This document shows, one piece after another, positions 351 through 27,139 of a stretch of 28,674 nt of DNA. The DNA is taken from NCBI GenBank assembly GCA_022563275.1, contig JADFNR010000032.1, forward strand, positions 1 through 28,674. Reading direction: 5' to 3'. The stretch comes from Chloroflexota bacterium. Lineage in GTDB: Bacteria > Chloroflexota > Dehalococcoidia > UBA3495. A program made the translations under genes and the position numbers. The notes beneath the pieces are model-generated. The model saw only the letters and a list, made by a program, of their open reading frames with translations, made no database searches and was not told where the DNA came from. Positions within the stretch are counted from its first letter, which is position 1, and each line of letters begins with the position of its first letter.

Positions 351-974
351 ATGAAATTCGGCAAGAATGTTCTGAGAGCAATATTTAGCGGTTGGAACAA
401 CCAAAGGGGCATCACGGGTCTGGAAACGGCCATCGTGTTGATCGCGTTCGTGGTGGTGTCCTCGGTATTCGCCTTCGCGGCCCTGTCCACCGGCATGTTC
501 TCCAGCGACAAAGCCAGAGAGACGGTGCACGCGGGCCTGGCCCAGACGCGGGCCACCATGGAACTGAAGGGATCGGTCATCGGCACATCCGACGTCGCCG
601 CCGTCACCGGGGTGCTCACGACCATCACGTTCCACGTGACCCAGTCGGCGGGTGGAGCGGACATCGACCTGAGTCCGGGCACCACGATCATCAAGTACAC
701 CGACGAAACCCAGGCCAAGCTGTTCGGATCGACCGCCGGCTTCACGGTGACCGGGATCGGTTCCGCCGATTCAGACAACCTGCTGGAGCGGAACGAGGTC
801 TACAAGATCGAGTTGATCAACCTGGACGTCACCGGCCCTGGCGACGACAAGCTGACTAACAGTTTGGGCGTCAGTAAGACCTTCACTCTGGAAGTGATAC
901 CGGTCAAGGGAGCGGTGCTGCACATAGAGCGGACCACGCCCATCTACATGGATGTGATCAACTTCTTGAACTAG
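351..974 (+). CDS. arlB: Archaellin (archaeal-type flagellin), copy 1
   Basis: This 207-residue protein is a structural subunit of the archaellum filament. A 20-residue basic leader ends in QRG, followed directly by ITGLETAIVLIAFVVVSSVF. This is a class III (type IV pilin-like) signal peptide cut after Gly by a PibD/FlaK-type peptidase, with the conserved hydrophobic helix that forms the filament core. The rest is rich in Thr, Val, Ser and Gly, as expected of the outer beta-sandwich, and ends in PIYMDVINFLN. The ATG start is supported by AGAGGAG seven bases upstream. It heads a run of archaellin genes followed by the motor genes arlG-F-H-I-J. The family assignment is secure from the leader motif and the context. 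The predicted protein is identical to that of copy 2. Confidence 0.93.
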   Translation: MKFGKNVLRAIFSGWNNQRGITGLETAIVLIAFVVVSSVFAFAALSTGMFSSDKARETVHAGLAQTRATMELKGSVIGTSDVAAVTGVLTTITFHVTQSAGGADIDLSPGTTIIKYTDETQAKLFGSTAGFTVTGIGSADSDNLLERNEVYKIELINLDVTGPGDDKLTNSLGVSKTFTLEVIPVKGAVLHIERTTPIYMDVINFLN

Positions 975-1023
975 AGCCTTGTTCCGGCAGCAGGCCCAAG
1001 TTCAAGCACCTTTCAGCTGCGTG

Positions 1024-1054
1024 GTATCGCCTGGAAGGAAAACCCAGGCGGTAC
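1024..1054 (+). promoter_or_regulatory. Second copy of the archaellin 5'-UTR hairpin
   Basis: This is identical to the element at 296-326 and lies in the 104-base space between archaellin copies 1 and 2, followed by AGAGGAG at 1065-1071 and the ATG at 1079. It has no counterpart in front of the third archaellin, where the gap is only 19 bases. Confidence 0.6.
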
Positions 1055-1078
1055 AAGTGAAAACAGAGGAGCTAAAAC

Positions 1079-1702
1079 ATGAAATTCGGCAAGAATGTTC
1101 TGAGAGCAATATTTAGCGGTTGGAACAACCAAAGGGGCATCACGGGTCTGGAAACGGCCATCGTGTTGATCGCGTTCGTGGTGGTGTCCTCGGTATTCGC
1201 CTTCGCGGCCCTGTCCACCGGCATGTTCTCCAGCGACAAAGCCAGAGAGACGGTGCACGCGGGCCTGGCCCAGACGCGGGCCACCATGGAACTGAAGGGA
1301 TCGGTCATCGGCACATCCGACGTCGCCGCCGTCACCGGGGTGCTCACGACCATCACGTTCCACGTGACCCAGTCGGCGGGTGGAGCGGACATCGACCTGA
1401 GTCCGGGCACCACGATCATCAAGTACACCGACGAAACCCAGGCCAAGCTGTTCGGGTCGACCGCCGGCTTCACGGTGACCGGGATCGGTTCCGCCGATTC
1501 AGACAACCTGCTGGAGCGGAACGAGGTCTACAAGATCGAGTTGATCAACCTGGACGTCACCGGCCCTGGCGACGACAAGCTGACTAACAGTTTGGGCGTC
1601 AGTAAGACCTTCACTCTGGAAGTGATACCGGTCAAGGGAGCGGTGCTGCACATAGAGCGGACCACGCCCATCTACATGGATGTGATCAACTTCCTGAACT
1701 AG
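1079..1702 (+). CDS. arlB: Archaellin, copy 2 (identical protein)
   Basis: The 207-residue protein is identical to copy 1, with the same class III signal peptide (cleavage after QRG, mature start ITGLETAIVL) and the same ribosome binding site and hairpin leader. The gene differs from copy 1 by two synonymous bases. In archaea, multiple archaellins usually differ in sequence and have distinct roles in the filament. Identical copies instead suggest a dosage effect or a recent duplication. Only 19 bases separate its stop from the start used here for the third archaellin. An artefactual duplication by the assembler cannot be excluded from the sequence alone. Confidence 0.9.
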   Translation: MKFGKNVLRAIFSGWNNQRGITGLETAIVLIAFVVVSSVFAFAALSTGMFSSDKARETVHAGLAQTRATMELKGSVIGTSDVAAVTGVLTTITFHVTQSAGGADIDLSPGTTIIKYTDETQAKLFGSTAGFTVTGIGSADSDNLLERNEVYKIELINLDVTGPGDDKLTNSLGVSKTFTLEVIPVKGAVLHIERTTPIYMDVINFLN

Positions 1703-1721
1703 ACGTTTTGCCCGCCCCAAA

Positions 1722-2372
1722 ATGGGCCGGTCAGAGGTGGCGAACAATTTAGTTATGGTTTCCCGGATCTTAACGGCGATGCGCTGCCCGTGCAGCGGGC
1801 AGCGCGGAATAACTGGCCTGGAAACGGCCATCGTGTTGATAGCGTTCGTGGTGGTGTCTTCAGTGTTTGCGTTCGCGGCTTTGTCCTCTGGGATGTTTGC
1901 CAGCGACGCATCTAGGGAAGTCCACATGATCGGCCTGGAGAATACAAGGACCAGCCTAGAGCTCAAAGGTTCGGTCATCGGCTTTGCGAATTCTACAGGC
2001 GCCACCGGGGTTATCACAGAACTGACGTTCAGCGTGGGCCAGGCAGCCGGTGGCGGGCAAGTGGATCTAACGCCCGGAACGATGGTCATCAAGTACTCAG
2101 ATGAAACCCAGAGCAAGTTGTTTGGATCGGCCGCCGGCTTCACGGTCACCGGAATCGGCGGCGCCGACTCGGACAATCTGCTGGAGCGAAACGAAATCTA
2201 CGAGATCAGGATGATAAATCTGAATGTCACCGGCAACGGTGACGACTCATTGAAGTATCCCTTAGGCGTGGATCGGACATTCACTCTAGAGGTCATACCC
2301 ATCGAAGGGACAGTACTCCAGATCGAGCGCACAACGCCCATCTACATGGACCTGATCAACTTTCTCAAATAG
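1722..2372 (+). CDS. arlB: Archaellin, diverged third copy
   Basis: The 216-residue protein is colinear with copies 1 and 2: the QRG/ITGLETAIVLIAF cleavage region is identical, the middle is diverged, and the tail is PIYMDLINFLK. The leader is longer and unrelated in sequence, and contains CPC just before the cleavage site. The start is uncertain. ATG 1722 has no ribosome binding site. ATG 1755 (MVSRILTAMRCPCSGQRG) gives an 18-residue leader close to the 20 of the other copies, with only a distant GAGGTGG. It could be a minor filament component, such as a base or hook-proximal subunit, because it differs from the two identical copies. The DNA for the hydrophobic helix is much closer to copies 1 and 2 than the rest, consistent with constraint or local gene conversion. 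Confidence 0.88.
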   Translation: MGRSEVANNLVMVSRILTAMRCPCSGQRGITGLETAIVLIAFVVVSSVFAFAALSSGMFASDASREVHMIGLENTRTSLELKGSVIGFANSTGATGVITELTFSVGQAAGGGQVDLTPGTMVIKYSDETQSKLFGSAAGFTVTGIGGADSDNLLERNEIYEIRMINLNVTGNGDDSLKYPLGVDRTFTLEVIPIEGTVLQIERTTPIYMDLINFLK

Positions 2373-2568
2373 GGGGCCGGCCATTCGCCGAACTGATGGG
2401 GTTGAGCAAATCTCCAACGGGTTGCCTCGACGTTCGGGCACGCTTAGGTCTTTTTCCGGGACCTCCGCAGCGCCATCCATGATCAACTAGCCCTGGCGGC
2501 GGATTGTTCCCCCTCGATCCGCGCCGGGGTCTGCTGGCCTTTAGGCCGATTATCAAAGCGAGCATCCA

Positions 2569-5172
2569 ATGGCAGATGGCGACCAGAGAATAGAAGTCTT
2601 AGAAGATGAAATGAAGGTACTGAAGGGAGAGGTCTCCCGTACCTTGGTTGACCTACGTGCTCTGTTGATGCGTGAAGAATCGCCGCTGATGTCCGGGGGG
2701 CTCGTCAACCGCATCGTGGCGCCAAGTGACCGCGGTGTTGGCGCCACGACCCAAATAACCCTGGCTCCGGTGGTCGAAGCGCCCGCTACCGTCGCCGTGG
2801 TTGCCGCACCGGGTGTTCCGGATGTAGAACCAGCGGCTTTGGCGGGCTTGCCGGACTTGGGGACCACGGCGACGCCGGAACCGCCTGGGTCGCCCAGCGG
2901 AGGTATTATTCCATCTTTGGAGGGTCAGGGTGTCTCTCCATTATCGAATGCGGCGCCGCCAGCCAGCGCACCATCTGCCGGTGATTTCAATCTTCCCGGC
3001 GCGCCATCTACCGGTGATTCCACGCTCCCGAATGCGAACGCTTTACCTGGACCCGGGCCTGATGCTGATCTAGCAGACGAAGAACGGATCCGCAAACGGA
3101 GAGAGCGTCTTCTGGAGGAAGAGTCTCTAGAGGAAGGAGAGCGCGCCCTCCGTTCCCGAAAGAGAGAAAGCGATCAAGCGGAGGAAGCGACTGAACAGGA
3201 AGCTCGCGACCGCCGGAAGAAACGAGCACAGGAAGATGCTGAAGAATCAAAGCCCGGAGTTGGACCTGCTTCAGATCCAGCGAAAGATGCTGAAGATGTT
3301 GAACGGCTCCGCCAACGAAAGGCTCATCTCGAGGAAGAGGAGTCTGTAGAAGATGCGGAGCGTGCACTGCGTAAACGCAAGAGAGAAGGTGATCAAGAAG
3401 AAGAAGCGGCTGAACAGGAAGCCCGTGGCCGCCGGAAGAAACGAGCCCGGGAAGATGCTCTAGAACTGGAGATCGGGACTGCACCCGGAGCTGATTCAGA
3501 TCCAGTAGCCGAGCTGAAAAAAGCTCAACTGAAAGACGCTGAAGATGATAAACGGCGCCGCGAACGCAAGGAGCGTCTCAGGGAAGAACAGGCTTCAGAT
3601 GATGCGGAGCGCGCCCGGCGTGACCGAAGGAAAGAAGATGAGCGATCGGAGGAACAGGCCGAGGACGATGCTCATAAACGCCGGCGGAAGCGATCTCAGG
3701 AAGAAGACGAAGAGCTAGAGAATCGCAGCCGCAAGAGAAAACAGGAGCAGTTGGAGGAAGAGGCCGACCAAGAGCGCCGGGACCGCAGAATGAAACAGGA
3801 GCGTGCGGAAGAAGAGGCCGATCAAGAGCGCCGGGACCGCAGGAAGGATCAGGAGCCGGAATACGGCGAAACACCGGAGCATCGGGATCCAAACACACTA
3901 GCTTGGCAGGAAACAAACGATCAACTGGAGAGCCAATACGGGTCCGAGTCGCAAGACGAGATTGATCATTTCCGCCGCGTTGGCCGCCGAGGTAGAGGTC
4001 TGGAGCAGGAAATGGAAAACTTTTCAGAATCACATATGTCAGAAAGTGATTGGGATTCCGGCATGAGTTCCAATCACGAATCAGGTCCTTTGGACGAGGT
4101 TCCCGAAGACCAAAGGAGTCCCATGGGGCCGGATGCCGCGAGAACTGGATTGGATGTTGGGGAAGATGAGGAATACGGTTCCGAGGATGACCAGGCCGAT
4201 CTAGTGACCGGAGCCGGCCAAGTCCAAGACGATCTGGTGACTGGAGCCGGCCAAGACCAAGACGATCTGGTGACTGGAGCCGGCCAAGACCAAGACGAAG
4301 AAGGGGACCAAGCCCAGAACCAGGACTATGAACTCGAATTTAGTCCAGAATCCGCCAGAGTTGATGGATTAGGCGATGGCCCCGCTGACAGCGGCGGCGA
4401 TGACTACTCCGATGATTGGGACGATTCAGAAGAACCAAGTCCGCCACAACTAGACCCGCTCGACGATCACGATCCCTACGAAAACCAGGAGGAACCCAAA
4501 ATTAACGGAAACAACGGCCCTCGTAGGCCCAAGGGACCGGAAGCGGGACGGCGGACGTACGAGGACGACAACTACCAAGAAAGCGACTACCAAGACAACT
4601 ACGACGATGGCCGGAACCAAGAACACAGGTCCCGGCCCCAGAACCCGACCCGTGCCCAGCGGATGCCTAGACCGTCTCCTGGTGGGCCCATGGGCCGTCG
4701 GCCGCCCACGGGCAACTATGGCTATGCCCCTCAAAAAGGCAACGGCCGCTGGGAACAACCTCCGTCCGGACCCGATCGGTGGCCGGGCCCCCAGGAATGG
4801 GCGCCGGAACCGCCGCCCATGGACCTTAATCTGGTGTCCAATCTGGTCCGTTGGGCCTCCATGGCCAAACACCGGGTGGGCGAGAAGCGGCTTTCGGACA
4901 TCATTGAACTTTATGTTGCGTCAAGAAACGCTCCTCCCGGACTGAGCAAAGTGCTTGCCAACATCGCGTCCATCGTCGACGACCAAGCGCCTGAATCGGG
5001 ACAAACGGCCCAGGAAACGATGGACCTGATCGCTCATCTCCACGGCATCCTGACGGCTAGCCTCCCCGTGCCCGCGGTGCCCTTGTTCGATGGCCCGATC
5101 AACTTCGGGGCCGGGAATAGGGCCTACGGCGGCAACGGACCAACCAGAGACGACGGCAAGGGTGACTGGTAG
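2569..5172 (+). CDS. Giant ArlC/D/E-like archaellum switch protein candidate
   Basis: This 867-residue protein sits where arlC/D/E lie in euryarchaeal loci, between the archaellins and arlG. Residues 1-40 form a short coiled coil (RIEVLEDEMKVLKGEVSRTL), as in ArlC-type proteins. Residues ~40-165 are Pro/Ala-rich. Residues ~170-435 hold at least three degenerate repeats of about 70 residues, extremely rich in Glu, Arg and Lys. Acidic and Pro/Asn-rich linkers follow. The end, from about residue 745 (LVSNLVRWASMAKHRVGEKR, LSDIIELYVASRNAPPGLSK), resembles the FlaD/E domain, whose family members read roughly WLEFLVEKVG...LDYYV. ArlCDE proteins form the cytoplasmic motor collar that receives chemotaxis signals. 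Usual family proteins have 150-400 residues, so this one is greatly enlarged. Its stop overlaps the next start by one base. The function is inferred mainly from position and the C-terminal domain. Confidence 0.65.
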   Translation: MADGDQRIEVLEDEMKVLKGEVSRTLVDLRALLMREESPLMSGGLVNRIVAPSDRGVGATTQITLAPVVEAPATVAVVAAPGVPDVEPAALAGLPDLGTTATPEPPGSPSGGIIPSLEGQGVSPLSNAAPPASAPSAGDFNLPGAPSTGDSTLPNANALPGPGPDADLADEERIRKRRERLLEEESLEEGERALRSRKRESDQAEEATEQEARDRRKKRAQEDAEESKPGVGPASDPAKDAEDVERLRQRKAHLEEEESVEDAERALRKRKREGDQEEEAAEQEARGRRKKRAREDALELEIGTAPGADSDPVAELKKAQLKDAEDDKRRRERKERLREEQASDDAERARRDRRKEDERSEEQAEDDAHKRRRKRSQEEDEELENRSRKRKQEQLEEEADQERRDRRMKQERAEEEADQERRDRRKDQEPEYGETPEHRDPNTLAWQETNDQLESQYGSESQDEIDHFRRVGRRGRGLEQEMENFSESHMSESDWDSGMSSNHESGPLDEVPEDQRSPMGPDAARTGLDVGEDEEYGSEDDQADLVTGAGQVQDDLVTGAGQDQDDLVTGAGQDQDEEGDQAQNQDYELEFSPESARVDGLGDGPADSGGDDYSDDWDDSEEPSPPQLDPLDDHDPYENQEEPKINGNNGPRRPKGPEAGRRTYEDDNYQESDYQDNYDDGRNQEHRSRPQNPTRAQRMPRPSPGGPMGRRPPTGNYGYAPQKGNGRWEQPPSGPDRWPGPQEWAPEPPPMDLNLVSNLVRWASMAKHRVGEKRLSDIIELYVASRNAPPGLSKVLANIASIVDDQAPESGQTAQETMDLIAHLHGILTASLPVPAVPLFDGPINFGAGNRAYGGNGPTRDDGKGDW
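4198..4296 (+). repeat. Three in-frame 33-bp tandem repeats
   Basis: A 33-base unit encoding DDLVTGAGQ(V/D)Q occurs three times, at 4198-4230, 4231-4263 and 4264-4296. The last two copies are identical and the first has three substitutions. The repeat keeps the reading frame, so copy number can vary without breaking the gene. It lies in the acidic linker of the large switch-protein candidate. Confidence 0.9.
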
Positions 5173-5642
5173 TGGAGAAGGCTATCGCATCATCTCTGTT
5201 CATCATAGCCAGCGTGGTGGCGACCATCGCGCTCATCAACGCCGTGTTACCGGCGTTGGGCAAGAGTTCCGGCGCATTGGTTTCGGCCAATGCGGCCGCG
5301 TCTGACCGGATAAGGACCGATATTGAGATACTTCATGCAACGGGCGACACATCGGCCAAAACGGTGACATTCTGGGTGAAGAACATCGGGACCACCACCA
5401 TAAAAGATATCACGGTGTCTGATATTTTTCTTGATACCCCTTCCTCGGTCAATCGACTCTCCTACACCTCCGGATGCAGCTCAGATTGCTGGGATTACGC
5501 ATTGGAGGGAGGAGCCACGGTTTGGAAGCAATCGAAAACAGTAAAATTCACGCTCACTCTGTCGACGCTGGACAGCGGGGTTTATTCGGTTCGGTTGAGC
5601 GTCTTCAACGGAGTGAGCGCCGACAAGGACTTTAGCGTCTAG
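5172..5642 (+). CDS. arlG: ArlG-like archaellum stator/anchor protein
   Basis: The 156-residue protein has one N-terminal membrane helix (SLFIIASVVATIALINAVL, residues ~8-26) and an extracytoplasmic beta-sandwich. The run RTDIEILHATG...VTFWVKNIGTTTI matches the ArlG family pattern TDIEII...V-KNTG. In archaea ArlG assembles with ArlF outside the membrane as the static part of the motor. The start is a GTG at 5172 that shares its first base with the last base of the upstream TAG, so translation is probably coupled. CSSDC near residue 100 could form a disulfide. Assignment to ArlG rather than ArlF rests on remembered family patterns and on the next gene fitting ArlF better. Confidence 0.75.
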   Translation: MEKAIASSLFIIASVVATIALINAVLPALGKSSGALVSANAAASDRIRTDIEILHATGDTSAKTVTFWVKNIGTTTIKDITVSDIFLDTPSSVNRLSYTSGCSSDCWDYALEGGATVWKQSKTVKFTLTLSTLDSGVYSVRLSVFNGVSADKDFSV

Positions 5643-5679
5643 GTTTCGGGGGTCTGAGAAATAGGGAGCAGCCAGTCTC

Positions 5680-6198
5680 GTGGGAATCCTAGTAGCTGGA
5701 ATATTGGTAATCACGACATTCTTAGTTGCCTCTTCACTGATGTTCGGGACAATCTTGAGCGGCTCGGTGGAGCAGACCCAAGCATTAAAAGAACTGGCGG
5801 TAATTAACAAACGGTTGGCCGGATCGGCCTTAAACATCACCAGCGCGGTGGTCGATACCCCTGGAGGGGGCGACGTGACCGTGGTGGTGGACAACACAGG
5901 TTCAGAGTCGGTTTTCGATTTCGCCGATATGGACGTGATAATTCAATACACGGATGTGTCCGGCAATAAGACACTCACATACCTGGATTTCAATTCAGTA
6001 GCGGCAGGAGTAAATGAATGGACGGTGCCCGTCACCGGAGTGCAACCAGATTCGTTCAATCCGAACGTCTGGGACTCCGATGAGGTCCTGACCATAGACA
6101 TCAAAGTAGACCCATCGATAAAAACAGGGACATCAGCCCACGTGGTGGTGGGAACCCCGCAGGGAGTCGCCGACCAGTCTGACCTCACCAACCCTTAA
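5680..6198 (+). CDS. arlF: ArlF-like archaellum stator protein
   Basis: The 172-residue protein starts at GTG 5680 with AGGGAG about 11 bases upstream. It has an N-terminal membrane helix (residues ~2-25), then a beta-sandwich with SALNITSA and VTVVVDNTGS, the ArlF pattern of INIT... followed by V-NTGS. Archaeal ArlF binds the S-layer or cell surface and partners with ArlG. The order G-F-H-I-J is the one known from Sulfolobus. A clear paralogue of the whole protein forms the first ~165 residues of the 671-residue protein encoded on the - strand at 13034-11019, sharing for example EYTD/QYTD, SYLEY/TYLDF and the W-T-V segments. This is the most direct link between the two gene clusters. Confidence 0.75.
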   Translation: MGILVAGILVITTFLVASSLMFGTILSGSVEQTQALKELAVINKRLAGSALNITSAVVDTPGGGDVTVVVDNTGSESVFDFADMDVIIQYTDVSGNKTLTYLDFNSVAAGVNEWTVPVTGVQPDSFNPNVWDSDEVLTIDIKVDPSIKTGTSAHVVVGTPQGVADQSDLTNP

Positions 6199-6251
6199 CC
6201 CTCTACGCAATCATAATTTTTTTAAACAATTGCACCAGAGGAGAGGACCGG

Positions 6252-6968
6252 ATGGCACGCCCCGTAATAGAAAAAGGGAAAACGATCACCACTGGCAGTA
6301 CTGAGATAGACAAAAAGCTGGGCGGAGGCATCCCGGTGGGTTCGCTGGTCTTGCTGGAAGGCCAGTCAGACGCTGGGAAAAGCGTGCTCAGCCAGCATTT
6401 CTCCCATTCAACACTGAACGACAAGATCTCAGTGGCGTGCTACACCACTGAGAATACGGTAAAAAGTCTGCTGTCCCAGATGAACTCGCTGAATCTGGAC
6501 GTCACAGACTATTTCCTCTGCGACCGCCTGCGCATCTACCCCGTGGAGATGACCGCTGAAGACGCGGATGTCGGGGAATCGTTCAACGCTCTCAAGAATC
6601 ATTTCGAATCACTGCCGCCCAGGTTCGAGCTGATCATATTCGATTCGCTGACGGGTATGGTGGCCCACGCCGACGACCGCGGCATAATCGACTTCTTCGC
6701 CGGTTGCAAGAAGCTCTGCGACCAGGGCCGCACCATCGTGACCATCGTCCACTCCTACGCCTTTGCCGACCAGATGCTGATCCGCGTCCGCTCTCTGTGC
6801 GACGCTCACCTGGTGATGAAGATCGACCAGTTGGGGGAGCGGTTGGTCAAGACCATGGAGGTGGCCAAGGTCCGGAATGCCGACCAGTCCACTGGGAATG
6901 TCATCAGCTTTGACGTGGAGCCAGGCATTGGGATGAAGATAATCCCAATCTCCAAGGCCAAGGCCTAA
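6252..6968 (+). CDS. arlH: Archaellum ATP-binding protein ArlH (KaiC-like)
   Basis: The 238-residue RecA/KaiC-fold protein has Walker A GQSDAGKS at residues 37-44 and Walker B LIIFD at 127-131, followed by SLTG. Its length is typical of ArlH. ArlH binds ATP, forms a ring under the membrane, and contacts ArlI and the switch complex as part of the motor core. The start is well supported by the run GAGGAGAGG ending about five bases before ATG 6252. The stop lies three bases before the arlI start, indicating co-transcription and probable translational coupling. The conserved motifs are intact. Confidence 0.92.
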   Translation: MARPVIEKGKTITTGSTEIDKKLGGGIPVGSLVLLEGQSDAGKSVLSQHFSHSTLNDKISVACYTTENTVKSLLSQMNSLNLDVTDYFLCDRLRIYPVEMTAEDADVGESFNALKNHFESLPPRFELIIFDSLTGMVAHADDRGIIDFFAGCKKLCDQGRTIVTIVHSYAFADQMLIRVRSLCDAHLVMKIDQLGERLVKTMEVAKVRNADQSTGNVISFDVEPGIGMKIIPISKAKA

Positions 6969-6971
6969 CCG

Positions 6972-8702
6972 ATGGCGCCAGTGAAAGAACGCCGCCGGTC
7001 AAAGGAGACGCCGCACAGCCATAAGAACGGAGTGGCAAGTTGCCCAATCATAAAGCTGTTGGGTAAGGAGCTACAGGAAGAGGTGGCGTCTGCGGGTCAT
7101 CTCATGGATTATATCCACGGCCTGGAGATCGACATAATCGGCATCCCGGAGTATCACAAAGAGTTGGGCCGAAGAGTGGGTGACATGAAGAACCCCAACG
7201 TCATCTATCCGATACGTGGCGGCCTCTATGTCCACGTTTACCCCGACCCCAAAGACGCCAGAAATTTTTACTATGCCATCGAGCCCGGCATGAACGTCGA
7301 CAGTAATGGTCTGATGGAACTGCTGGAAAACAATCTGGTTGATTATGTTGACGACCTAGATGACCTTGGCGGCAGAGACCAGATCGACCGGAAAAAAAAG
7401 CTTCTGGCGATCTTGAAGAAGATCTGCGTCATCACTAAACCCAGGGACCTCGAGAAGGCCCGCGAGAAATCCGAAAAGAAGGATGAAGGGAAATTACCGG
7501 TTACCCGTGAACAGTACGAGACCCTCAAATACGAGTTGATCCGCGACAAAGAAGGCCTGGGTCAACTGGAGCCGTTGATCCTTGATCCTTACATCGAAGA
7601 TATTTCGTGCAGCGGCGTTGGACCGATCTTTCTGGAGCACAAGATATTCAAGGGCCTGAAGTCCAATATCGTATTCGACGATTTCCAGACCCTGGACGAT
7701 TTCGTGATTAAATTGTCGGAGCGGATCGGGAAACCGGCGACCTTCCGGCAACCGATCATCGACGCCACATTGCCCGACGGCTCGCGTATCAACATGGTTT
7801 TCGGACAGGACGTCTCCCGCCGGGGCAGCAACTTTACCATACGCAAGTTCTCTGAAACTCCGCTCAGTATCGTAGAACTGGTGGAGTTTGGCGGCCTCTC
7901 CTATGAGATGGCGGCGTATCTGTCGCTGGCCATGCACCACGGTCAGAACATCTTTGTCTCCGGAGAAACGGCGTCCGGGAAGACGACCTTGATGAACGCG
8001 TTGACGACGTTCATTCCCGCCGCCAGCAAGATCGTAAGCATCGAAGACACTCCGGAGCTCCAGGTCCCCCACCCCAACTGGATCAGGGGAGTGATCCGGG
8101 CCTCCACCGGGGATTCCGGCTCGTCGGTGGACATGTTCGACCTGCTTAGGGCGGCTCTCCGTCAGCGTCCCGATGAAATCATCATCGGTGAGATACGCGG
8201 CGCTGAGGGCGCCGTTGCGTTTCAGGCCATGCAGACGGGGCACGCTTGCATGGCCACCTTCCACGCCGACTCGGTGGAGAAACTGATCCAGCGCTTAACG
8301 GGCAACCCGATCCTCATCCCCAAGACCTATATAGATAACCTGAACCTGGTGGCCATCCAGAGCATGGTCCGCCTTCCCAACGGAAAGCCGGGCCGGCGCC
8401 TGATCAGCCTGAATGAGATCGTGGGTTACGATTCAGCCTCGGATTCCTTCTCCTATGTTGAGGTCTTCAAGTGGGATGCCGCGAAAGACATCTTTGAGTT
8501 CCCCGGATATATGAACAGCTACATGCTGGAGGAAGTGATCGCCATGAAGCGGGGTCTTCCGCCCAGCCGGAAACGCGAGATATATGACGAATTGACCCGG
8601 CGGACAAATCTACTCCGCCGGCTGAAAGAGCAGGGAATAACCGGTTTCTATGAGATATACCAAGTTTTGGCCCAGGCCAACAAAGAAGGGATATTTAAAT
8701 AA
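6972..8702 (+). CDS. arlI: Archaellum assembly and rotation ATPase ArlI
   Basis: The 576-residue type II/IV secretion-type ATPase has an N-terminal domain to about residue 230. The core then carries Walker A GETASGKT at 331-338, an EDTPEL Asp-box segment near 358, Walker B DEIIIGEIRG from 401, and the His-box TGHACMATFHADS. In archaea ArlI powers both filament assembly and rotation through ArlJ. It sits between arlH and arlJ as in all archaeal loci. The DPYIEDISCSG stretch is typical of this ATPase superfamily. All catalytic motifs are present, so it is likely functional. The context and the ArlH neighbour separate it from type IV pilus ATPases. Confidence 0.94.
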   Translation: MAPVKERRRSKETPHSHKNGVASCPIIKLLGKELQEEVASAGHLMDYIHGLEIDIIGIPEYHKELGRRVGDMKNPNVIYPIRGGLYVHVYPDPKDARNFYYAIEPGMNVDSNGLMELLENNLVDYVDDLDDLGGRDQIDRKKKLLAILKKICVITKPRDLEKAREKSEKKDEGKLPVTREQYETLKYELIRDKEGLGQLEPLILDPYIEDISCSGVGPIFLEHKIFKGLKSNIVFDDFQTLDDFVIKLSERIGKPATFRQPIIDATLPDGSRINMVFGQDVSRRGSNFTIRKFSETPLSIVELVEFGGLSYEMAAYLSLAMHHGQNIFVSGETASGKTTLMNALTTFIPAASKIVSIEDTPELQVPHPNWIRGVIRASTGDSGSSVDMFDLLRAALRQRPDEIIIGEIRGAEGAVAFQAMQTGHACMATFHADSVEKLIQRLTGNPILIPKTYIDNLNLVAIQSMVRLPNGKPGRRLISLNEIVGYDSASDSFSYVEVFKWDAAKDIFEFPGYMNSYMLEEVIAMKRGLPPSRKREIYDELTRRTNLLRRLKEQGITGFYEIYQVLAQANKEGIFK

Positions 8703-8726
8703 CGTGCCAACCACAGCTAAGAATCA

Positions 8727-10232
8727 ATGATCTTCTCCAAGAAATCATCAAGCAAGCGAGTGGCTGAGAAGGTATCTTCCGACAACTCCGCGATAAGCTT
8801 CGACCTCTACTCCAATCTCACGTACATGGCGGCTCTTTCCGTGGGGGAGCCGTCTCGAGACCTGATAATGGCCAAGTCATTGGAGCAAGAATTCGAGACG
8901 GGCATCTTCTTCCGCCAGGTCTATGTGATGACCAAGCGGATGGGCTTTGATTATTCCAGGGCCTTCCGTTTGGTCTCCAGAAAGGCGGGTGCGGTTAGCA
9001 TCAAGAACCTGCTTCTCCGTTTCGCCGGCGCCATAAATTCCGGCGTTTCCGAGGTGGATTTCCTACTGGAAGAAGCCAAGGTGGAAGCCGAAGAGTACAA
9101 CAGCACTTACCTTCGCGCAGTGGAGACTTTGACTAAATGGGCAGACGCCTATGCGGCGTTGCTGGTGTCGGTCACGCTGGTAGTGGTGGTGGCGATGATC
9201 TCTACTATGCTCAGCCAACTGGGAGATGCCTTCTTGTCGATGCTCACCCTCGCCACGATCTTTGTGACGGCGTTCGGTGTGTACATCATCTTCCGGACGG
9301 CCCCTACCGAGGACATCATTTACCAGAACCGTCGCGGCCCTAAATATAGACGGCGTTCGAAGCTAATGTTTTTTATCTTTGCGCCCATCGGTTTGTTCGG
9401 GGGGCTGTTTTTAAGTCTGAGTTACGGCCTGCCAATCTTATTCGTAACGATTGGACTGGGGCTCCTGCCATCCGGGGTGTACGCCTACCTTGATAACGGG
9501 TCCATTGGAAAGATCGACAAGGAGGTCTCGTCGTTCATCAGGTCTCTGGGGAATGTGACCGAGTCTTTGGGCTCAACGGTCTCTGTTGCCCTGGAAAAGA
9601 TCGACCGCCGGGCGTTGGGAACTTTAGACCCCTATATCAAGCGTCTCCAGATCCGGCTGAAACGGTCGATCAACACCGATAAATCTTGGAATGCGTTTCG
9701 AGATGAAGCGGGAAGCGCGCTCTTGAACTCCTCAACCCGGATGTTTGTTGACGGCGTCACCCTGGGAGGCGCGCCGGACAAGGTTGGGGGCATAGCGTCG
9801 AAATACGCGCTTGAGGTCGCCCTGTTGAGAGACCGCCGGGCCGTTGCCGCGCTTCCCTTTGCGATCTTGACCATTCCGTTGCATTTTGCGATGACCGCGC
9901 TGATGGTATTCATCTTGGAGATCATGCGGACCTTTAATAGCCAGATAGCGGGCGCCATCGCTGAACTGAACGAGTCGTCCGCCGGGAAGGGGCTGGCGCT
10001 GCTTCCTCCGCTTCCCGTCTTCCAGAGTCAGGACATGGGTTCTCTGGGCGTGATCACCACGGTCGCGTTGGTCTCCATGACCATCGCCAACGCCCTATCG
10101 CCAAAATTCGCCATGGGTGGCAGCCCGTTTTTGATGTCGTTATTCGGCTCAATCACCTGCCTAATGACCGGATTTAACATGCTGTTCATTCCGAAGATTG
10201 CCCGAAGCGTCCTTCTGCCAGACGCCATCTGA
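8727..10232 (+). CDS. arlJ: Archaellum membrane platform protein ArlJ
   Basis: The 501-residue polytopic protein has two soluble T2SSF/GspF-like helical domains. The first lies at ~40-130 (FETGIFFRQVYVMTKRMGFD), followed by membrane helices near 142-163, 169-192, 213-232 and 233-255. The second soluble domain lies at ~260-370, followed by helices near 378-400, 438-460 and 470-492. This is the TadC/PilC-like layout of ArlJ, the only polytopic membrane protein of the archaellum, on which ArlI acts. The start at ATG 8727 lacks a clear ribosome binding site, and 24 bases separate it from arlI. Confidence 0.9.
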   Translation: MIFSKKSSSKRVAEKVSSDNSAISFDLYSNLTYMAALSVGEPSRDLIMAKSLEQEFETGIFFRQVYVMTKRMGFDYSRAFRLVSRKAGAVSIKNLLLRFAGAINSGVSEVDFLLEEAKVEAEEYNSTYLRAVETLTKWADAYAALLVSVTLVVVVAMISTMLSQLGDAFLSMLTLATIFVTAFGVYIIFRTAPTEDIIYQNRRGPKYRRRSKLMFFIFAPIGLFGGLFLSLSYGLPILFVTIGLGLLPSGVYAYLDNGSIGKIDKEVSSFIRSLGNVTESLGSTVSVALEKIDRRALGTLDPYIKRLQIRLKRSINTDKSWNAFRDEAGSALLNSSTRMFVDGVTLGGAPDKVGGIASKYALEVALLRDRRAVAALPFAILTIPLHFAMTALMVFILEIMRTFNSQIAGAIAELNESSAGKGLALLPPLPVFQSQDMGSLGVITTVALVSMTIANALSPKFAMGGSPFLMSLFGSITCLMTGFNMLFIPKIARSVLLPDAI

Positions 10233-10245
10233 AGGGAGATGAATC

Positions 10246-10899
10246 ATGGGCCTCTTGGATAAACTCAAAAGAAACCGGAAACAAGCCGATGAAGACTTGG
10301 ACGACTTGGATCTGGACCTGGACTTGGATGAAGACGGTGGTGACACGCCGTCTGCTTCCTCCGGAGGCGGCGTTCTCGGACGGGCGATGGGGCTCTTGCA
10401 AAGGGGCAAGAAACGGTCCTCAGGCGAGGAGGATGACGAAGATGGTGAATTGGATGTAGACAGCTTCGATGAGGACGACGATGAGGATACCCCAAAGAAA
10501 GGGGGCGGGGGTCTCCGAGGCATCCTTGGCAAAGTGAAGAGAAAAGGGGGGAGAAGGAACCGCTCCGGAAACTCAGACCCGGATGATGATTCCGAATCGG
10601 ATGAATTGGTCTCTCTGGAGGCGGATGAGGATCCTGATGGCGATGAACAGCCCATAAGGCGGTCTGGCATCGCGGCCGCGCTGGACGGAAATTCTGAAGA
10701 GGATGAGCCAAGCGCCAACGGGGAGGAGGAATCTGGCCGTGAGGGCGCCCTGGCGGGCCTTGGGCTGGACCTGGAGTCATTGTTCGAAGACGAGTTCGTG
10801 TTTGATCCAACCTTGAAAGACCTGGCGGAGTCCCTGGATAATGTTTCAGCCGTGGAACTAGCTGCTGATCTAAGGTCGTTCTTGGAGGAACTTCAATAG
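10246..10899 (+). CDS. Acidic low-complexity protein, last gene of the archaellum locus
   Basis: I do not recognise this 217-residue protein. It begins with a basic amphipathic stretch (MGLLDKLKRNRK) and continues with highly acidic runs (DLDLDLDLDEDGG and others) broken by basic, Gly-rich patches containing GLLQRGKKR and GILGKVKRK. It ends in a predicted helical segment (DPTLKDLAESLDNVSAVELA, ADLRSFLEELQ). AGGGAG about eight bases before ATG 10246 supports the start, and only 13 bases separate it from arlJ. A terminator follows, so it belongs to the archaellum transcript. The charge pattern and small C-terminal domain recall the large switch candidate. It may be a cytoplasmic adaptor or regulator, but this is a guess from position only. 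Confidence 0.75.
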   Translation: MGLLDKLKRNRKQADEDLDDLDLDLDLDEDGGDTPSASSGGGVLGRAMGLLQRGKKRSSGEEDDEDGELDVDSFDEDDDEDTPKKGGGGLRGILGKVKRKGGRRNRSGNSDPDDDSESDELVSLEADEDPDGDEQPIRRSGIAAALDGNSEEDEPSANGEEESGREGALAGLGLDLESLFEDEFVFDPTLKDLAESLDNVSAVELAADLRSFLEELQ

Positions 10900-10940
10900 C
10901 CGGGGCGGCACCGTTATTGGAACGAACAAAAACGTGAGGC

Positions 10941-10971
10941 AAAACGGCGGCCGTTCGGCCGCCGTTTTTTT
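10941..10971 (+). terminator. Rho-independent terminator of the archaellum operon
   Basis: The stem ACGGCGGCC/GGCCGCCGT (loop GTTC) is followed by seven T residues and lies 41 bases after the acidic protein gene. The four A residues on the other side make it a possible weak bidirectional terminator that also serves the convergent - strand operon ending at 11019. Confidence 0.93.
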
Positions 10972-11018: not shown

Positions 11019-13034
11019 TTATCTGATGGAGATACGCGTCTGGTCCGCTGCGGGGAGCGTATTGTCGTCGATTCGGAAGTCAACCGAGACGCTTTCACCC
11101 GATGTATTGGCAGTGGAGTCCGCGAACAGGTCAATCTCCAGGTAGTCGGTGCCGTCCACCACTGTGTATTCGCTGAACGAATAGGCTGCCGTTAAGGTCT
11201 GCCACGCGCTGCCCGCTATGTTGGAGCTGTTGGCCACGTCCGTAGCCAATGTCGCGCGCACGGCGCCAGAGGAATCTCTGATCACTATATCGATGTCGGC
11301 GTGGATGTCCAACCGCACCAATCTGGTGTAGCCGGCCACCGATATGTTGATTGCCCCATTCTCCAGCAGCTCGTCCCATGTGTTGGCGTTGCTGATGCCC
11401 ACGGCGGCCTGCAGGTGGGTATTCCGCTGGATATCGCCGTTCCAGTCATCGGATGAGCCGCCCTGCCTGAAACTTGCCCTGTAATCGGCTCCATTGTCGG
11501 TGTTTTCCGCCCAAAAGATCAGCCCCACAGCATCGGATGACACCGCGGGAGAAACGTCTGTGTCAGCATCCAGTTGCTGCCAGGAACCCAGTGTTGGGTC
11601 GGCCACAGCCACATCATCGGTGTAAAAGACGACAGACCCCTTGGTCTGGCCCACCAGATAGACTTTGATGTTGCTATTTTCGATGTAGATGTCGAATTGG
11701 TCCGATCCGTCGATGCCCACCAGGTACATGGTGTTCTCATAAGGGCCCAGCTTTCTGTCGATGGTGGAGAAGGAACTTCCGGTTTCCCGCACACCGTAGT
11801 TTCGCGCCGCGTTTTCCACGTTGTCGATCAGCAATATAACGCCGTCCGAATCTGAGTCCACAACGCCGGACACATCGATGGCCGTCCAGGTCCCCGTGGC
11901 GCCTGGCGTAACGTCCAGCGGCACACTGAAAAAAGCCGGATCGGACCCGATGGTGTAACCCAACAGCTTGAAGTCTATATCCACGTTCTCGATATAGCCT
12001 TGGACCAGGCGGCCGCTGTCGATCTTAATCATCTGCCAGCGGTGGGAAGCGGGGTACAGCAACCCGTTCTCGATGTCCGACATGTAGTCTCGGGTGTCAT
12101 CTTTCCCCCGCACCATTCCACTGTAGGTGCCAACGGTCCCGGTGTTCACGACTTCGATGATCGCTCCGGACGCCTCCGGAGGGACAGCGGCGGAAAGGTC
12201 GATATCCTGCCAACTGCCGGTGACGCTCAGGCTGATGTCCGTGGCATTGACCGGCCAGACGAATCCCAGGTCTTCCTTGTCGCGTTTGACCCGGTAGGTC
12301 GCCGTCCAGGTGGACGCCGGTATGTTAGCTGTCTCGGTGAGCAGGAAGGTTGATCTTCCGTTGTTGGCGGTGGGACTGATGCGCCCGGTGGTGGCCGACG
12401 GTATCGCCGATGAGATGGTGGTGGCGGTGGCGGTAACCTCGGCAGTCACATCGCTGACCAGTTTGTAGTATTCCACGCCGTCGATGTTGTTCGTCTCGGA
12501 ATGGAGATACAGATGCTCCGGGCATTGAAAATACTCCAGGTCTCTTGCGCCCAGGGGAGAATTTACCAGCAGCGGCCCGTAGCCGTCGGCCTTCATGGAT
12601 GAGGCGATCGAGAACTTGATGACCGCCGTTTCCTGGATGTCCCACTGGCTGGCGTTACGGGTGTCGGGGGAGAGGGAGGTTACGGTCCAACGATTTCCGG
12701 TGACGGCCGTTGTGGCGTATTCGAGATAGCTGACAACCTTGGAGCCGCCGGTGTCGGTGTATTCAACGAGCACGTCTCCGTCTTGGACAGGGATGATGTT
12801 GATCGACCCGGTGTTCACCACCGAGGCAGTGAAATTCGTGCAGTCCAGGTCCGTGCTAGTGGGCCCCGCGGAGGAGATTTCAATAGAAGAATTTATACGT
12901 TCTACCTGTAGGCTCTGTAGCGCGGAGAAATCTCGGCCGTGGATATCCCAATAGTTCAGGAGAGAACTGAATGTGGCAATCGCCATCAGAAAGAATAAGG
13001 AGATGATTACGCTGCTGGGAATCAGAGTGGTCAT
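11019..13034 (-). CDS. ArlF-domain surface protein with three tandem beta repeats
   Basis: The 671-residue protein starts with one membrane helix (SSVIISLFFLMAIATFSSLL). Residues 1-~165 align along their length with the ArlF at 5680-6198: INSSIEISSA, VVNTGS, VLVEYTD, VSYLEY, then RWTV, then a short tail LLVNSPLGARD against VVVGTPQGVAD. Residues ~165-270 are a Thr/Ser-rich spacer. Three repeats of about 105 residues follow, starting at GSW/GTW near W275, W383 and W485, each with a VVNT/LIDN/WAEN-like strand and an ENxxI...G(Y/Q)T ending. A final beta domain follows. It is probably anchored in the membrane and exposed outside. The gene lies 98 bases after the transglutaminase-like gene, so it may be the last gene of that operon. 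No strong ribosome binding site is visible. Confidence 0.8.
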   Translation of the reverse strand: MTTLIPSSVIISLFFLMAIATFSSLLNYWDIHGRDFSALQSLQVERINSSIEISSAGPTSTDLDCTNFTASVVNTGSINIIPVQDGDVLVEYTDTGGSKVVSYLEYATTAVTGNRWTVTSLSPDTRNASQWDIQETAVIKFSIASSMKADGYGPLLVNSPLGARDLEYFQCPEHLYLHSETNNIDGVEYYKLVSDVTAEVTATATTISSAIPSATTGRISPTANNGRSTFLLTETANIPASTWTATYRVKRDKEDLGFVWPVNATDISLSVTGSWQDIDLSAAVPPEASGAIIEVVNTGTVGTYSGMVRGKDDTRDYMSDIENGLLYPASHRWQMIKIDSGRLVQGYIENVDIDFKLLGYTIGSDPAFFSVPLDVTPGATGTWTAIDVSGVVDSDSDGVILLIDNVENAARNYGVRETGSSFSTIDRKLGPYENTMYLVGIDGSDQFDIYIENSNIKVYLVGQTKGSVVFYTDDVAVADPTLGSWQQLDADTDVSPAVSSDAVGLIFWAENTDNGADYRASFRQGGSSDDWNGDIQRNTHLQAAVGISNANTWDELLENGAINISVAGYTRLVRLDIHADIDIVIRDSSGAVRATLATDVANSSNIAGSAWQTLTAAYSFSEYTVVDGTDYLEIDLFADSTANTSGESVSVDFRIDDNTLPAADQTRISIR
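11289..12218 (-). repeat. Three ~105-residue protein repeats in the ArlF-domain protein
   Basis: The repeat starts are marked by Trp codons at residues 275, 383 and 485 (spacing 108 and 102). Each unit has the pattern G-(S/T)-W-x-x-(I/L)-D, then a hydrophobic strand ending in Asn, and closes with a strand such as IDFKLLGYT, IKVYLVGQT or INISVAGYT. The repeats are diverged at DNA level, so they are old. They look like carbohydrate-binding or S-layer-like beta sandwiches, though no known domain is certain. Confidence 0.65.
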
Positions 13035-13132
13035 GGATCAGGTAAAGCTTTGAGCGGCAGACGCCCCTTAGGTGGTTGAATCCGTAGCGGCTGAAGCTCT
13101 TCCGCCGCCCAAAGCTCCGGTGGGCCGCTTGA

Positions 13133-15685
13133 TCAGCTCTGGAGGCCCGGTTTTTGTTTTCCGAGCGCCCTAAACGCCTTCTCCAACAGCGCCAACCGGC
13201 TACGCCCTTCGGTGACGATTCCCGCGTTCAGGTCGACGCTGCGGTAGTTGGCAAGCCAGATGGCCTGGGTGAACCACGAAAGGTGGTCGTCGATCTCTTG
13301 GCTGCGGTCGGCGGCGAAGGAAGCGTAATGGCCCGCTGTCTGCCAATCGGCCCTGGGAGCGCCCGCATCGCGCCGGATCAAACGCTCAACCTCGGTATAG
13401 AGTTTCTTTATCTCCCGTCTCCGGTCTCCCGGGATCACCGCGTAGGCCAGCAGGCGCCGGCCCGCTTTACTCAACCGCCGGCGAGAACCGGTTTGGAACC
13501 ATACCCCTATCAGAAGCACAACGGCCAAGGACGGCGCCAGAGCCCACAAAACGGGGCCTGAAACGGAGCTGGTCAGGGTCTCAAAGGCTTTCTGCGGCCC
13601 CCCCTTCAGCGTCTCGAATACTTCCTCTCCGACTCCGGCGCTCAACCAGCTCGTGAGGCCGGCCATCGGCCGTTGTCCCAGGGATTGGTTATTCCTGGGC
13701 GCGCCGTCAAAGGGCACCCACCCGGACTGGCTGAACCGCACCTCTGCCCAGGCATGGCGGTCGCTTTCGCGCACCCGGTAGGTCCCGGTTAGCGGGTCTC
13801 TAACGCCGGGAAGATAGCCCACCGCCAACCGGGCTGGCATTCCGGCAGCCCGGGCCAGCATCACAGTCGCGGTCGCGTAATCCAAGATGCTGCCGGTCAC
13901 CCGCTGGAATAAGAACTCGTCCAGTGTCGCCATGGAGGCTAGGCCGGTGGGTCCGGGAGGAACATGGTCGGTCTCAGTGTTCAAGTACGAGATGATTCGG
14001 CCAAGTTTCTCAAAATCGCTGGCCGCCGAACCGACGATCTTCGTGGCCAGCTCCGAAAGTTCCTCTTCCATGTAAAAGGGGATGAAGGTCAATTCCGGGG
14101 ACAATCCCCGCGAAGTTTCATTCAGCAGCTGTGCCGGGGAGTGGTTAGGCACCGCGGAAATGACGCTGTAGGATGATCCTGAGGCGAGCAAAGCGTCGTC
14201 GGACTGCTCGTCGTTCACCACCACCTGCAGAGCCCGGTAGCCCGTTATCATGGGCAATTCGTCATCCCCCCTCACGAAGAAAGTCTGGCGGTAGTTGACG
14301 TCTTCAGAGGAAAATTGGTTCTCAAGGCTGTACCAAGTCCCCTTGGTGTCGAAACTTTCGATCATCTTATTGTTCAGGTCTTTAATGGTCCAACGTACCC
14401 CGTCGAAATCCTCAAACACCAGCCCTCTCCAATAGGATGCGACTTTGCTACGCACGTGGAACACCACAGGGTCATCGCCATTGTCGGTCTGGTCGTCACG
14501 GAACGCCACCTGAGTTTGGCCGGCGGCTCCCTGGCCACCGGCGCCGGGTAAGGTCTGTGAAGCCGTCTCTTGGGCGCCAACGCCGCCGCCGGTAGTGTGC
14601 AACGGGCCTGGGATTCCTCCCTCATCCTGAGGAGACTGGGGTGGCCCATCTGGGAATTGTTCCGTCCGGACGCCTGTATCACGGGCAGGCGCAGGTATTG
14701 GATCAGATACCGGGCCACCGGCCTGGTCACCCATCAGGGTGGTGACTTGAGCGGGAGGCCCTGTTTCTGGGCCCATCTTTTGGAGACCTCTCTCCTCACC
14801 CGTTTCGTTGAACGTATCCCCGATCGAGATATCGATGGGAGATTCGTTTCCCCGCGAAAGATCGCCCGCCTTGACTGTTGGATTGGAGGGTTTCGCCGCG
14901 GACGGACCGGCGCTTTCCGCGACCGTTATTTCCACAGGAGAATCGTCTTCTAGGTCTGTAGGACTTATGGATGGCTGGATATCGATATCGCTCCCAGAAT
15001 ATGGGAGAATCACCAATTCAGGCGGCCCGAACAGGTTGCTGTCGCCACGTGGAATGGTCGAGAACGCAAGTCCGGCCAAGAGGAACATGGCGCAGATAGC
15101 GCCGACCCAATAGACCAATATCGCAGCCGAATTCTTGGTCCAATAGACGTGGGCGGCCCGTATCATGTCTTCCAGGTAGGTCAACAACATGAAGGCCAAC
15201 AACACCACCACGAACCCAACCGCGAAAATGCCGAAGCTAACATCAAAGGCCTGCTGACTGGCGAAGAACAAGACCATTCCACTCAGCAACAGGCCCGTGT
15301 AAAGCCCGCCGCGAGTGCGCGCGTCGAAGGTTGCCAGACCGGACACCAATATCAGGTACTGGCCAACCGGAATCCAGTCACCGGTGAACGTTTTAACCAT
15401 GTCGTCGCGCAGGATGATAGAGAGGGCAATGACCAATGCCGCGATGATCAACGGCCGCATGCGGGATGGCTTGCTTCGCATACGGTAGCTGAGCCAGTGG
15501 CCGGCGGTGCCTAAGAACCCTCCAGCCAAACAAAATCTAAGGTCGCCTCCGACCCAGGCGAGCCCCAAGGCCGCGACCCAGAGTCCGGCCAACGCCAGCG
15601 TGCGCAGCCGGGAGGAGTCTTCGGTCTGGGAGGAGAAGAATGAACTTAGCCGGAAGCGGGCCCATCGGACCAGAGCTACATTCAT
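13133..15685 (-). CDS. Membrane transglutaminase-like protein lacking the catalytic Cys
   Basis: The 850-residue protein has a TgpA-like layout: about six membrane helices in residues ~25-215, a Pro/Gly/Asp-rich extracytoplasmic linker (~220-400), a transglutaminase-like domain (~560-670), one more helix near 715, and a C-terminal cytoplasmic part of DUF4129 type. The fold motifs are clear: LARAAGMPARLAVGYLPG, then DRHAWAEV (His644) and GWVPFDGAP (Asp660). At the position of the nucleophile, family members read C-x-D-(Y/F)-A. Here it is ILDYA, with Ile600 encoded by ATC. The protein is therefore probably not a Cys protease or transglutaminase, but a binding or structural version. The start overlaps the stop of the DUF58 gene (ATGA), as usual in MoxR-DUF58-transglutaminase operons. 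Confidence 0.88.
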   Translation of the reverse strand: MNVALVRWARFRLSSFFSSQTEDSSRLRTLALAGLWVAALGLAWVGGDLRFCLAGGFLGTAGHWLSYRMRSKPSRMRPLIIAALVIALSIILRDDMVKTFTGDWIPVGQYLILVSGLATFDARTRGGLYTGLLLSGMVLFFASQQAFDVSFGIFAVGFVVVLLAFMLLTYLEDMIRAAHVYWTKNSAAILVYWVGAICAMFLLAGLAFSTIPRGDSNLFGPPELVILPYSGSDIDIQPSISPTDLEDDSPVEITVAESAGPSAAKPSNPTVKAGDLSRGNESPIDISIGDTFNETGEERGLQKMGPETGPPAQVTTLMGDQAGGPVSDPIPAPARDTGVRTEQFPDGPPQSPQDEGGIPGPLHTTGGGVGAQETASQTLPGAGGQGAAGQTQVAFRDDQTDNGDDPVVFHVRSKVASYWRGLVFEDFDGVRWTIKDLNNKMIESFDTKGTWYSLENQFSSEDVNYRQTFFVRGDDELPMITGYRALQVVVNDEQSDDALLASGSSYSVISAVPNHSPAQLLNETSRGLSPELTFIPFYMEEELSELATKIVGSAASDFEKLGRIISYLNTETDHVPPGPTGLASMATLDEFLFQRVTGSILDYATATVMLARAAGMPARLAVGYLPGVRDPLTGTYRVRESDRHAWAEVRFSQSGWVPFDGAPRNNQSLGQRPMAGLTSWLSAGVGEEVFETLKGGPQKAFETLTSSVSGPVLWALAPSLAVVLLIGVWFQTGSRRRLSKAGRRLLAYAVIPGDRRREIKKLYTEVERLIRRDAGAPRADWQTAGHYASFAADRSQEIDDHLSWFTQAIWLANYRSVDLNAGIVTEGRSRLALLEKAFRALGKQKPGLQS

Positions 15686-16974: not shown

Positions 16975-16989
16975 TTCGCAGCCGGCTCC

Positions 16990-17145
16990 TTAGAAGCTGA
17001 TTAGGGGAAGAGAATTGAGGAGCGCCGAAACCGTGTTCGGCCCAGAAAGCAAGCCCTCGTTGGGCCTGGTTAAGATGTACACGGCAATGGCAAAGGCAAG
17101 AAAACCCCCGACTGAAATCGATCTGAAAGCCGTTGAGTTCAACAA
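16990..17145 (-). CDS. 51-residue single-helix membrane peptide between moxR and DUF58
   Basis: This TTG-started ORF encodes MLNSTAFRSISVGGFLAFAI and continues through AVYILTRPNEG to a TAA at 16990-16992. It has one membrane helix (residues ~12-25) and a short polar tail. AAGGAG (complement of 17153-17158) lies seven bases before the TTG and overlaps the moxR stop codon. Its own stop overlaps the ribosome binding site of DUF58. The tight packing in the same direction supports a real gene, and it fills what would otherwise be a 183-base gap. I recognise no family. It may be a small subunit of the MoxR-DUF58 complex. Confidence 0.6.
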   Translation of the reverse strand: MLNSTAFRSISVGGFLAFAIAVYILTRPNEGLLSGPNTVSALLNSLPLISF

Positions 17146-17157
17146 GTTTAATCTCCT

Positions 17158-27006: not shown

Positions 27007-27139
27007 TTCAGCACTCCCAGTGGCTCGTTGTTTCAGCGTGACCGGCAGATTATAAGCGGGCTCACCAAGAGTGGCAATCGGGTGGAGCAGGACGGGCCGC
27101 CCAAGGTCACCCTGGTCCCGGCCGGAGTCGGGAGAAAGG

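Follow-up and report, generated by a model that had tools for sequence, protein, structure and literature searches.

An archaellum locus in a Chloroflexota bacterium, with an enlarged ArlF protein as a candidate envelope anchor of the motor

The window analyzed here is a 28,674-nucleotide stretch of DNA (contig JADFNR010000032.1) assigned to Chloroflexota, which carries an archaellum (arl) gene block at positions 351-10899 and, converging on it from the opposite strand, a second gene block that ends with an unusually long relative of the stator protein ArlF (671 amino acids (aa); hereafter the long ArlF). The original prediction placed an archaellum locus at 351-10971, and all the genes that it named could be recovered with open reading frames (ORFs), Pfam and NCBIfam. 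The archaellins score above the cut-offs of both PF01917 and TIGR02537 and have a leader of the class III type (QRG/ITGLE). ArlH reaches 264 bits against a cut-off of 194 for NF004723 but falls just under the cut-off of the ArlH equivalog (203 vs 215), and ArlJ, with a score of 348, lies under its NCBIfam cut-off of 570 and is clear by E-value. Similarly, the ArlF of ordinary length passes PF22201 and PF01917 and ArlG passes PF01917, whereas both, with 26 and 42 bits, are far under the 110 bits required for the NCBIfam equivalogs and again clear by E-value. The stator genes are arranged as ArlG followed by ArlF, which is the arl2 order as defined in PMC12488501, and ArlI, ArlJ, ArlH, archaellins with class III leaders and an ArlCDE-like protein accompany them, as expected for the arl2 type. 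By homology, these genes almost certainly encode an archaellum system that would build and rotate a filament, and the cluster in the window is complete except for the prepilin peptidase.

The original prediction also held that the flanking genes, and hence the host, are bacterial, and several lines of comparison agree with this. A scan of the genome collection for ArlI identified 40 loci, 38 of which bear titles of Chloroflexota kinds (Chloroflexi, SAR202, Dehalococcoidia, Dehalococcoidales), the other two being from Euryarchaeota (L036) and from Alphaproteobacteria with a partial ATPase match (L040); in a sample of the class, ArlI was above cut-off in 29 of 148 genomes. In one of these loci (L001), which comes from the metagenome-assembled genome (MAG) 'Chloroflexi bacterium isolate B71T1B5', the genes from the archaellins through MoxR follow the same order as in the window. 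Protein identities are highest for ArlH (91%), lie at 77-89% for most of the other proteins and fall to 63% for an acidic protein and 59% for the ArlCDE-like protein. Farther downstream, the DNA from 18200 to ~27082 is colinear with the L001 genome, where it is spread over two contigs and carries an insertion, and with a single contig of L002's genome, in which the amidohydrolase gene is absent. Flanking genes grouping with Archaea, which would have spoken for another host, were not found: identities of the phosphosugar isomerase to its counterparts are 82% in the L001 genome, 71% in the L002 genome, 30-50% in eight other matching Chloroflexota genomes and 27-35% in archaeal genomes, of which six out of seven gave a match. 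In an ArlI tree of 58 rows, 35 Chloroflexota rows form one group (support 100/98) with the window as sister to L001, 21 archaeal archaellum rows form another and two archaeal pilus-type ATPases fall outside, although the program warned that long branches meet between the archaeal and the two pilus-type rows. Misassembly of an archaeal fragment onto bacterial DNA, to which the patchwork at both extreme ends of the window might point, has a negligible probability, since the order from arl to MoxR recurs in L001, GC content is even over block and flank (56-59%) and ArlI groups with Chloroflexota; contamination or a chimera was ruled out by the synteny with the L001 and L002 genomes. Taken together, the host is supported as a Chloroflexota bacterium of the SAR202/Dehalococcoidia type. 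Two MAGs were also observed to contain two or more separate archaellum loci each, namely B28T3L11 (L003 and L007) and bin.363 (L002, L031 and L039).

Residues 1-172 of the long ArlF match ArlF by both profile and structure, comprising a membrane helix, in which no class III site is visible, and an Ig domain. Since even the ordinary ArlF is under the NCBIfam cut-off, the 671-aa protein is best designated ArlF-like by sequence and ArlF by fold and profile. Its three repeats (R1-R3, within residues 252-576) are mutually homologous, and the predicted model contains three beta-sandwich units arranged like C1q/TNF-type trimers (5hkj, 5hzf, 4dou, 4zch, 5kca); because there is no Pfam match at E-values up to 1, we refer to them as fold-like and not as a C1q/TNF member. 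By their titles, four of these five structures are single-chain constructs; in the window, by contrast, all three units are encoded by a single natural gene. Unlike the ArlF/ArlG stator of S. acidocaldarius (4p94, 4zbh, 5tug), the window's protein has ~500 extra residues following the ArlF part. A search of BFVD with the model gave no match of good TM-score. All features are listed in Table 1.

Table 1. Features of the archaellum block and of the converging block with the long ArlF (window positions).
Feature	Position	Strand	Support or remark
Archaellin ArlB, copy 1	351..974	+	PF01917, 1.6e-26
Archaellin ArlB, copy 2, in tandem with copy 1	1079..1702	+	728-bp period; 2/624 bases differ
Archaellin ArlB, third gene	1722..2372	+	PF01917, 9.4e-22
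ArlCDE-like protein, 867 aa	2569..5172	+	hhalign to archaeal ArlD/E, 91.8%; alignment of 14 relatives
ArlG, stator	5172..5642	+	PF01917, 1.7e-9; NF052591, 8.6e-11, under cut-off
ArlF of ordinary length, 172 aa	5680..6198	+	PF22201, 5.4e-8; 89% identity to L001
ArlH	6252..6968	+	NF004723, 8.3e-79, above cut-off
ArlI, motor ATPase	6972..8702	+	NF058587, 653 bits vs cut-off 550; tree
ArlJ, membrane platform	8727..10232	+	NF004703, 7.5e-104, under cut-off
Acidic 217-aa protein, conserved 3' of ArlJ	10246..10899	+	27 relatives; alignment of 17
Terminator-like hairpin where the two gene blocks converge	10941..10971	.	Read by eye
Long ArlF, 671 aa	11019..13034	-	Last gene of the minus-strand block facing the arl block
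N-terminal part of the long ArlF (residues 1-172), with the membrane helix and the ArlF Ig domain	12519..13034	-	
Segment m0 of the long ArlF (residues 173-255), predicted to begin a jelly roll	12270..12518	-	
Repeats R1-R3 of the long ArlF (residues 256-570), predicted to form a C1q/TNF-type trimer from one chain	11325..12269	-	
Tail of the long ArlF (residues 571-671), predicted to complete the jelly roll begun by m0	11022..11324	-	
TgpA-type transglutaminase, DUF58 and MoxR genes, upstream of the long ArlF	13133..18135	-	Pfam; same order in L001

A protein search with the long ArlF scored 7996 candidates and listed 101 relatives, all of which were examined for domains. Among them, 42 have an architecture identical to that of the long ArlF, 24 consist of the head followed by R1-R2-R3, and 23 have R repeats with no ArlF head; some of the headless proteins are possibly fragments, and several are fused to other domains (such as P0048, P0053 and P0054, with PD40/DPPIV_N). 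Because the repeats occur without the ArlF head or fused elsewhere, the triad looks like a mobile surface module that was grafted onto ArlF.

Enlargement of ArlF is not restricted to this module. Besides the window, those 30 of the 40 fetched loci that had matches to both arlG and arlH were used (31 in total; L010, L012, L018, L027, L029, L035, L036, L038, L039 and L040 were dropped). Open frames of the ArlF type that reach 300 aa or more, counted from stop to stop, were found in 17 of the 31. The repeat triad occurs in the window, L001 and L007, the last of which has two copies inside the operon, so that both operon genes in the ArlF position carry repeats and the one remaining short ArlF-type frame is on the opposite strand. 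A long form with the jelly roll only lies in the operon in five loci (L021-L024 and L026), whereas six others (L008, L009, L011, L015, L032 and L037) have ~145-165 residues inserted between the helix and the Ig domain; an interpretation of the six resulting ~330-aa proteins as 'head-head' ArlF was ruled out, each being one ArlF split by the insertion. In L030 (positions 1455-8452; the DNA has ambiguous bases), three successive ArlF-type genes of 548, 1287 and 498 aa stand between arlG and arlH, PD40 beta-propeller blades being present in two or three of these genes and the Ig domain following the propeller, near the C-terminus; residues 1-180 of the largest, used as query, gave 40 matches, one at 92% identity and the rest at 22-44% to propeller proteins. 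Another PD40 beta-propeller ArlF (931 aa) is found beside a 360-aa ArlF in L014, and L031 has a different C-terminal extension. Our literature search revealed no paper that links the archaellum stator with a beta-propeller, and nearly nothing on C1q pseudo-trimer terms.

Since many of these loci are close relatives, 17 loci do not represent 17 events. In an ArlF/ArlG tree of 84 rows, the long label needs six changes, at least four of which are forced by well-supported branches; the rows labelled as short ArlF include four archaellins (L007_2237, L016_3157, L005_5633 and L015_6243) and an archaeal row that lies with ArlG (L036_6902), none of these five being in the long group. By comparison, ArlG frames are steady across the 31 loci, ranging over 134-182 aa, with one of them truncated where its contig stops. 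In 26 archaeal genomes, ArlF-type frames are mostly 138-195 aa; NF052590 served as the yardstick for this length because PF22201 matched only one of the 26, weakly, and three archaeal frames of 1022-3241 aa were not counted as ArlF owing to weak matches (E-values of 3e-4 to 6e-4). Thus, ArlF has been enlarged repeatedly and in different ways in Chloroflexota.

The occurrence of archaella in Chloroflexota, also stated by the original prediction, is in itself not new. SAR202 isolates carry archaellum genes (PMC10444878), and archaella were found in 243 of 3,780 Chloroflexota genomes, together with a cryo-electron microscopy (cryo-EM) structure and swimming of Litorilinea aerophila (PMC12488501). 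The loci of L. aerophila and other Chloroflexota resemble the present one in having arlB copies, an arlCDE homologue, arlG before arlF, arlH, arlI and arlJ in one locus, with the peptidase outside it (PMC12488501); the window likewise holds none. Likewise, the cluster of Ca. Lucifugimonas marina, of the same class, has several tandem archaellins followed by flaGFHIJ, but with six tandem flaB and, in the retrieved text, no mention of a long ArlF (PMC10444878). Duplication of arlF in some Chloroflexota is given in the retrieved text of PMC12488501, with no enlarged ArlF or added modules there (supplements were outside the search). The locus had been predicted to possess unusual extra parts, which is correct, except that the most unusual of them, the long ArlF, is situated just outside 351-10971; this protein is the new part.

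How a stator that grips an S-layer could hold in a peptidoglycan-bearing envelope is a question raised in the literature. In archaea, ArlG bridges the space beyond the membrane and is capped by ArlF, which grips the S-layer or envelope (PMC13319060, PMC8978795). For L. aerophila, PilO-LysM/PilN was proposed as the archaellum anchor, and anchoring in other Chloroflexota is called unknown (PMC13319060); pilO and pilN were found in 34 of 235 and PilO-LysM near archaellum genes in 3 (PMC13319060). This answer applies to a minority of the species. With its repeated gains of extracellular modules in this phylum, ArlF is a concrete candidate for the anchor: it would address the same problem as PilO-LysM/PilN, which are separate pilus proteins and not a stator subunit. 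In the proposed mechanism, ArlI would hydrolyse ATP and, with ArlJ, assemble and turn the archaellin filament, as expected from homology. The long ArlF would join or cap the ArlG stator, retaining the membrane helix and Ig domain, while its jelly roll and one-chain trimeric head would most probably attach to some bacterial envelope component and thereby hold the stator during rotation. Consistent with such a role, no class III site is visible at the N-terminal helix, versions of the protein lie within the operon in L007, and ArlF is the stator part that grew. We estimate a probability of about 0.5 that the long ArlF anchors the motor in the bacterial envelope, a reading that takes the folds as predicted and infers both its joining of the stator and its binding to the envelope.

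Several observations weigh against this reading and its extension to other lineages. The long ArlF is encoded outside the arl block, on the other strand and behind MoxR-DUF58-transglutaminase, an ordinary ArlF is also encoded at the locus, and no ligand or binding motif was identified in the long sequence. By single sequence, the protein matches no family at E-values up to 1 (Pfam) or 0.1 (NCBIfam), and the trimer match is one of a predicted model to solved structures at 6-9% identity. No ArlF-type frame of at least 300 aa was present in the available DNA of 14 of the 31 loci (the L002 contig stops just after ArlJ), and frames longer than 300 aa occur among archaellins too (L013, L031 and L033). 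In a wider sample, the ArlF profile matched 28 of 29 ArlI-positive genomes, mostly at ordinary ArlF, and frames of at least 300 aa were seen in only four of the 28 (G001, G096, G137 and G153), a count that split forms would escape. Finally, matching frames of 355-437 aa in 3 of the 26 archaeal genomes (G164, G188 and G209) indicate that ArlF enlargement is not confined to bacteria.

Gene position and strand, which are the same in the window and L001, could also mean that the long ArlF belongs, as a surface protein, to the MoxR-DUF58-transglutaminase operon, having taken over a membrane anchor of the ArlF type without any link to the archaellum. This is improbable given that its head is homologous to ArlF over the full length, that in-operon versions have the same repeats (L007) or the same jelly roll (L021-L024 and L026), and that the ArlF profile was unmatched in all 29 ArlI-negative genomes. 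It is less far-fetched, though still unlikely, that the protein does belong to the archaellum but forms an adhesin or glycan-binding head at the motor base instead of a torque anchor. C1q/TNF-type heads are binding domains, and R repeats without the ArlF head make up 23 of the 101 relatives, some of them fused to PD40/DPPIV_N domains, all of which fits an adhesin. Such a role is harder to reconcile with ArlF being the envelope-gripping subunit in archaea (PMC13319060, PMC8978795) and with L007, whose ArlF-position operon genes both carry repeats, the sole short ArlF-type frame being on the opposite strand.

Extending the anchor reading, we tentatively suggest, at somewhat less than even chance, that ArlF is the adaptor by which an archaeal rotary motor, once transferred into Chloroflexota, was fitted to bacteria, with separate lineages adding different envelope-binding modules (one-chain C1q/TNF-type trimers, jelly rolls, beta-propellers and helix-Ig insertions) that suit the motor to the envelope of each. 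This would have happened in a phylum that has no CheF and in which CheW, too, is absent from most archaellated genomes examined. If true, it would be a clear example of a molecular machine that was transplanted and then adapted where it touches the cell of its new host.

As regards chemotaxis, CheF absence and an unsettled chemotaxis link were reported for Chloroflexota (PMC12488501). CheF was detected in none of 34 archaellated genomes (including G001-G006) by a search that was positive in 3 of 14 controls, and CheW matched in 7 of the 34 vs 7 of the 14; because the completeness of these genomes is not stated, both absences are provisional. Many of these swimmers may therefore lack a classical chemotaxis array. 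In a Dehalococcoidales-type locus (L022, positions 12557-17150), histidine kinases and a response regulator are located directly downstream of the archaellum genes.

The 'CDE-like' protein of the original prediction was likewise corroborated. It consists of a short N-terminal coil, a long charged repetitive middle, which is shorter in more distant relatives, and a C-terminal ArlD/E domain (~residues 750-840). When the C-terminal domains of the 14 Chloroflexota proteins were compared with 26 archaeal PF04659 domains (from 26 of 30 fetched archaeal loci, four with truncated matches being left out), hhalign gave a probability of 91.8% and a score of 37.5, whereas none of 60 column shuffles scored above 16.3 and the reversed control reached 9.5. 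By single sequence, PF04659 gave at best an E-value of 0.06, in 1 of the 14; the ArlCDE-like assignment comes from the C-terminal ArlD/E comparison. Fused ArlCDE forms exist in archaea (PMC8978795). The acidic 217-aa protein, also located 3' of ArlJ in L001, L003, L004, L006, L013 and L034, has an invariant motif of the PIRRSGIA type and a C-terminal segment that is also conserved, but it matched no known family, and a relationship to ArlD/E was ruled out, as hhalign gave no match. It is a candidate for the missing link from signalling to the motor.

That the arl genes form one transcription unit, as originally proposed, is likely. Promoter-like matches were at chance level (6 found vs 5.3 expected). 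The bacterial-type terminator said to close the unit was corroborated in part: a hairpin with a 12-bp stem, a GTTC loop and a T run can be read at the end of the arl block, but it was not among the matches of a consensus terminator scan of the window. In the converging block, the TgpA-type transglutaminase (13133-15685, minus strand) appears to have Ile (Val in L001) at the position of the catalytic Cys. It is possibly a pseudoenzyme, and crosslinking of the long ArlF by this neighbour was rejected as an idea on account of the replaced Cys.

Both contig ends are patchy, which leaves 351-27082 unaffected. Bases 1-350 are shuffled pieces of the archaellin repeat (728-bp period) and, together with the near-identical copies at 351-1702, likely reflect repeat trouble at the contig end, so that the archaellin copy number is uncertain. 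At the other end, 27221-28674 is a foreign patchwork, i.e. a chimeric contig end, where GC content falls from 58% to 46% (56-59% in block and flank) and nothing matches in the syntenic genomes; by eye, its successive pieces look like Maf, galactokinase (in two frames) and an antisense FlhA start. Immediately before it lies an interspersed repeat (27108-27220), whose 43-base core is identical at two places in the L001 genome and 92-97% alike at several other sites in the L001, L002 and L003 genomes.
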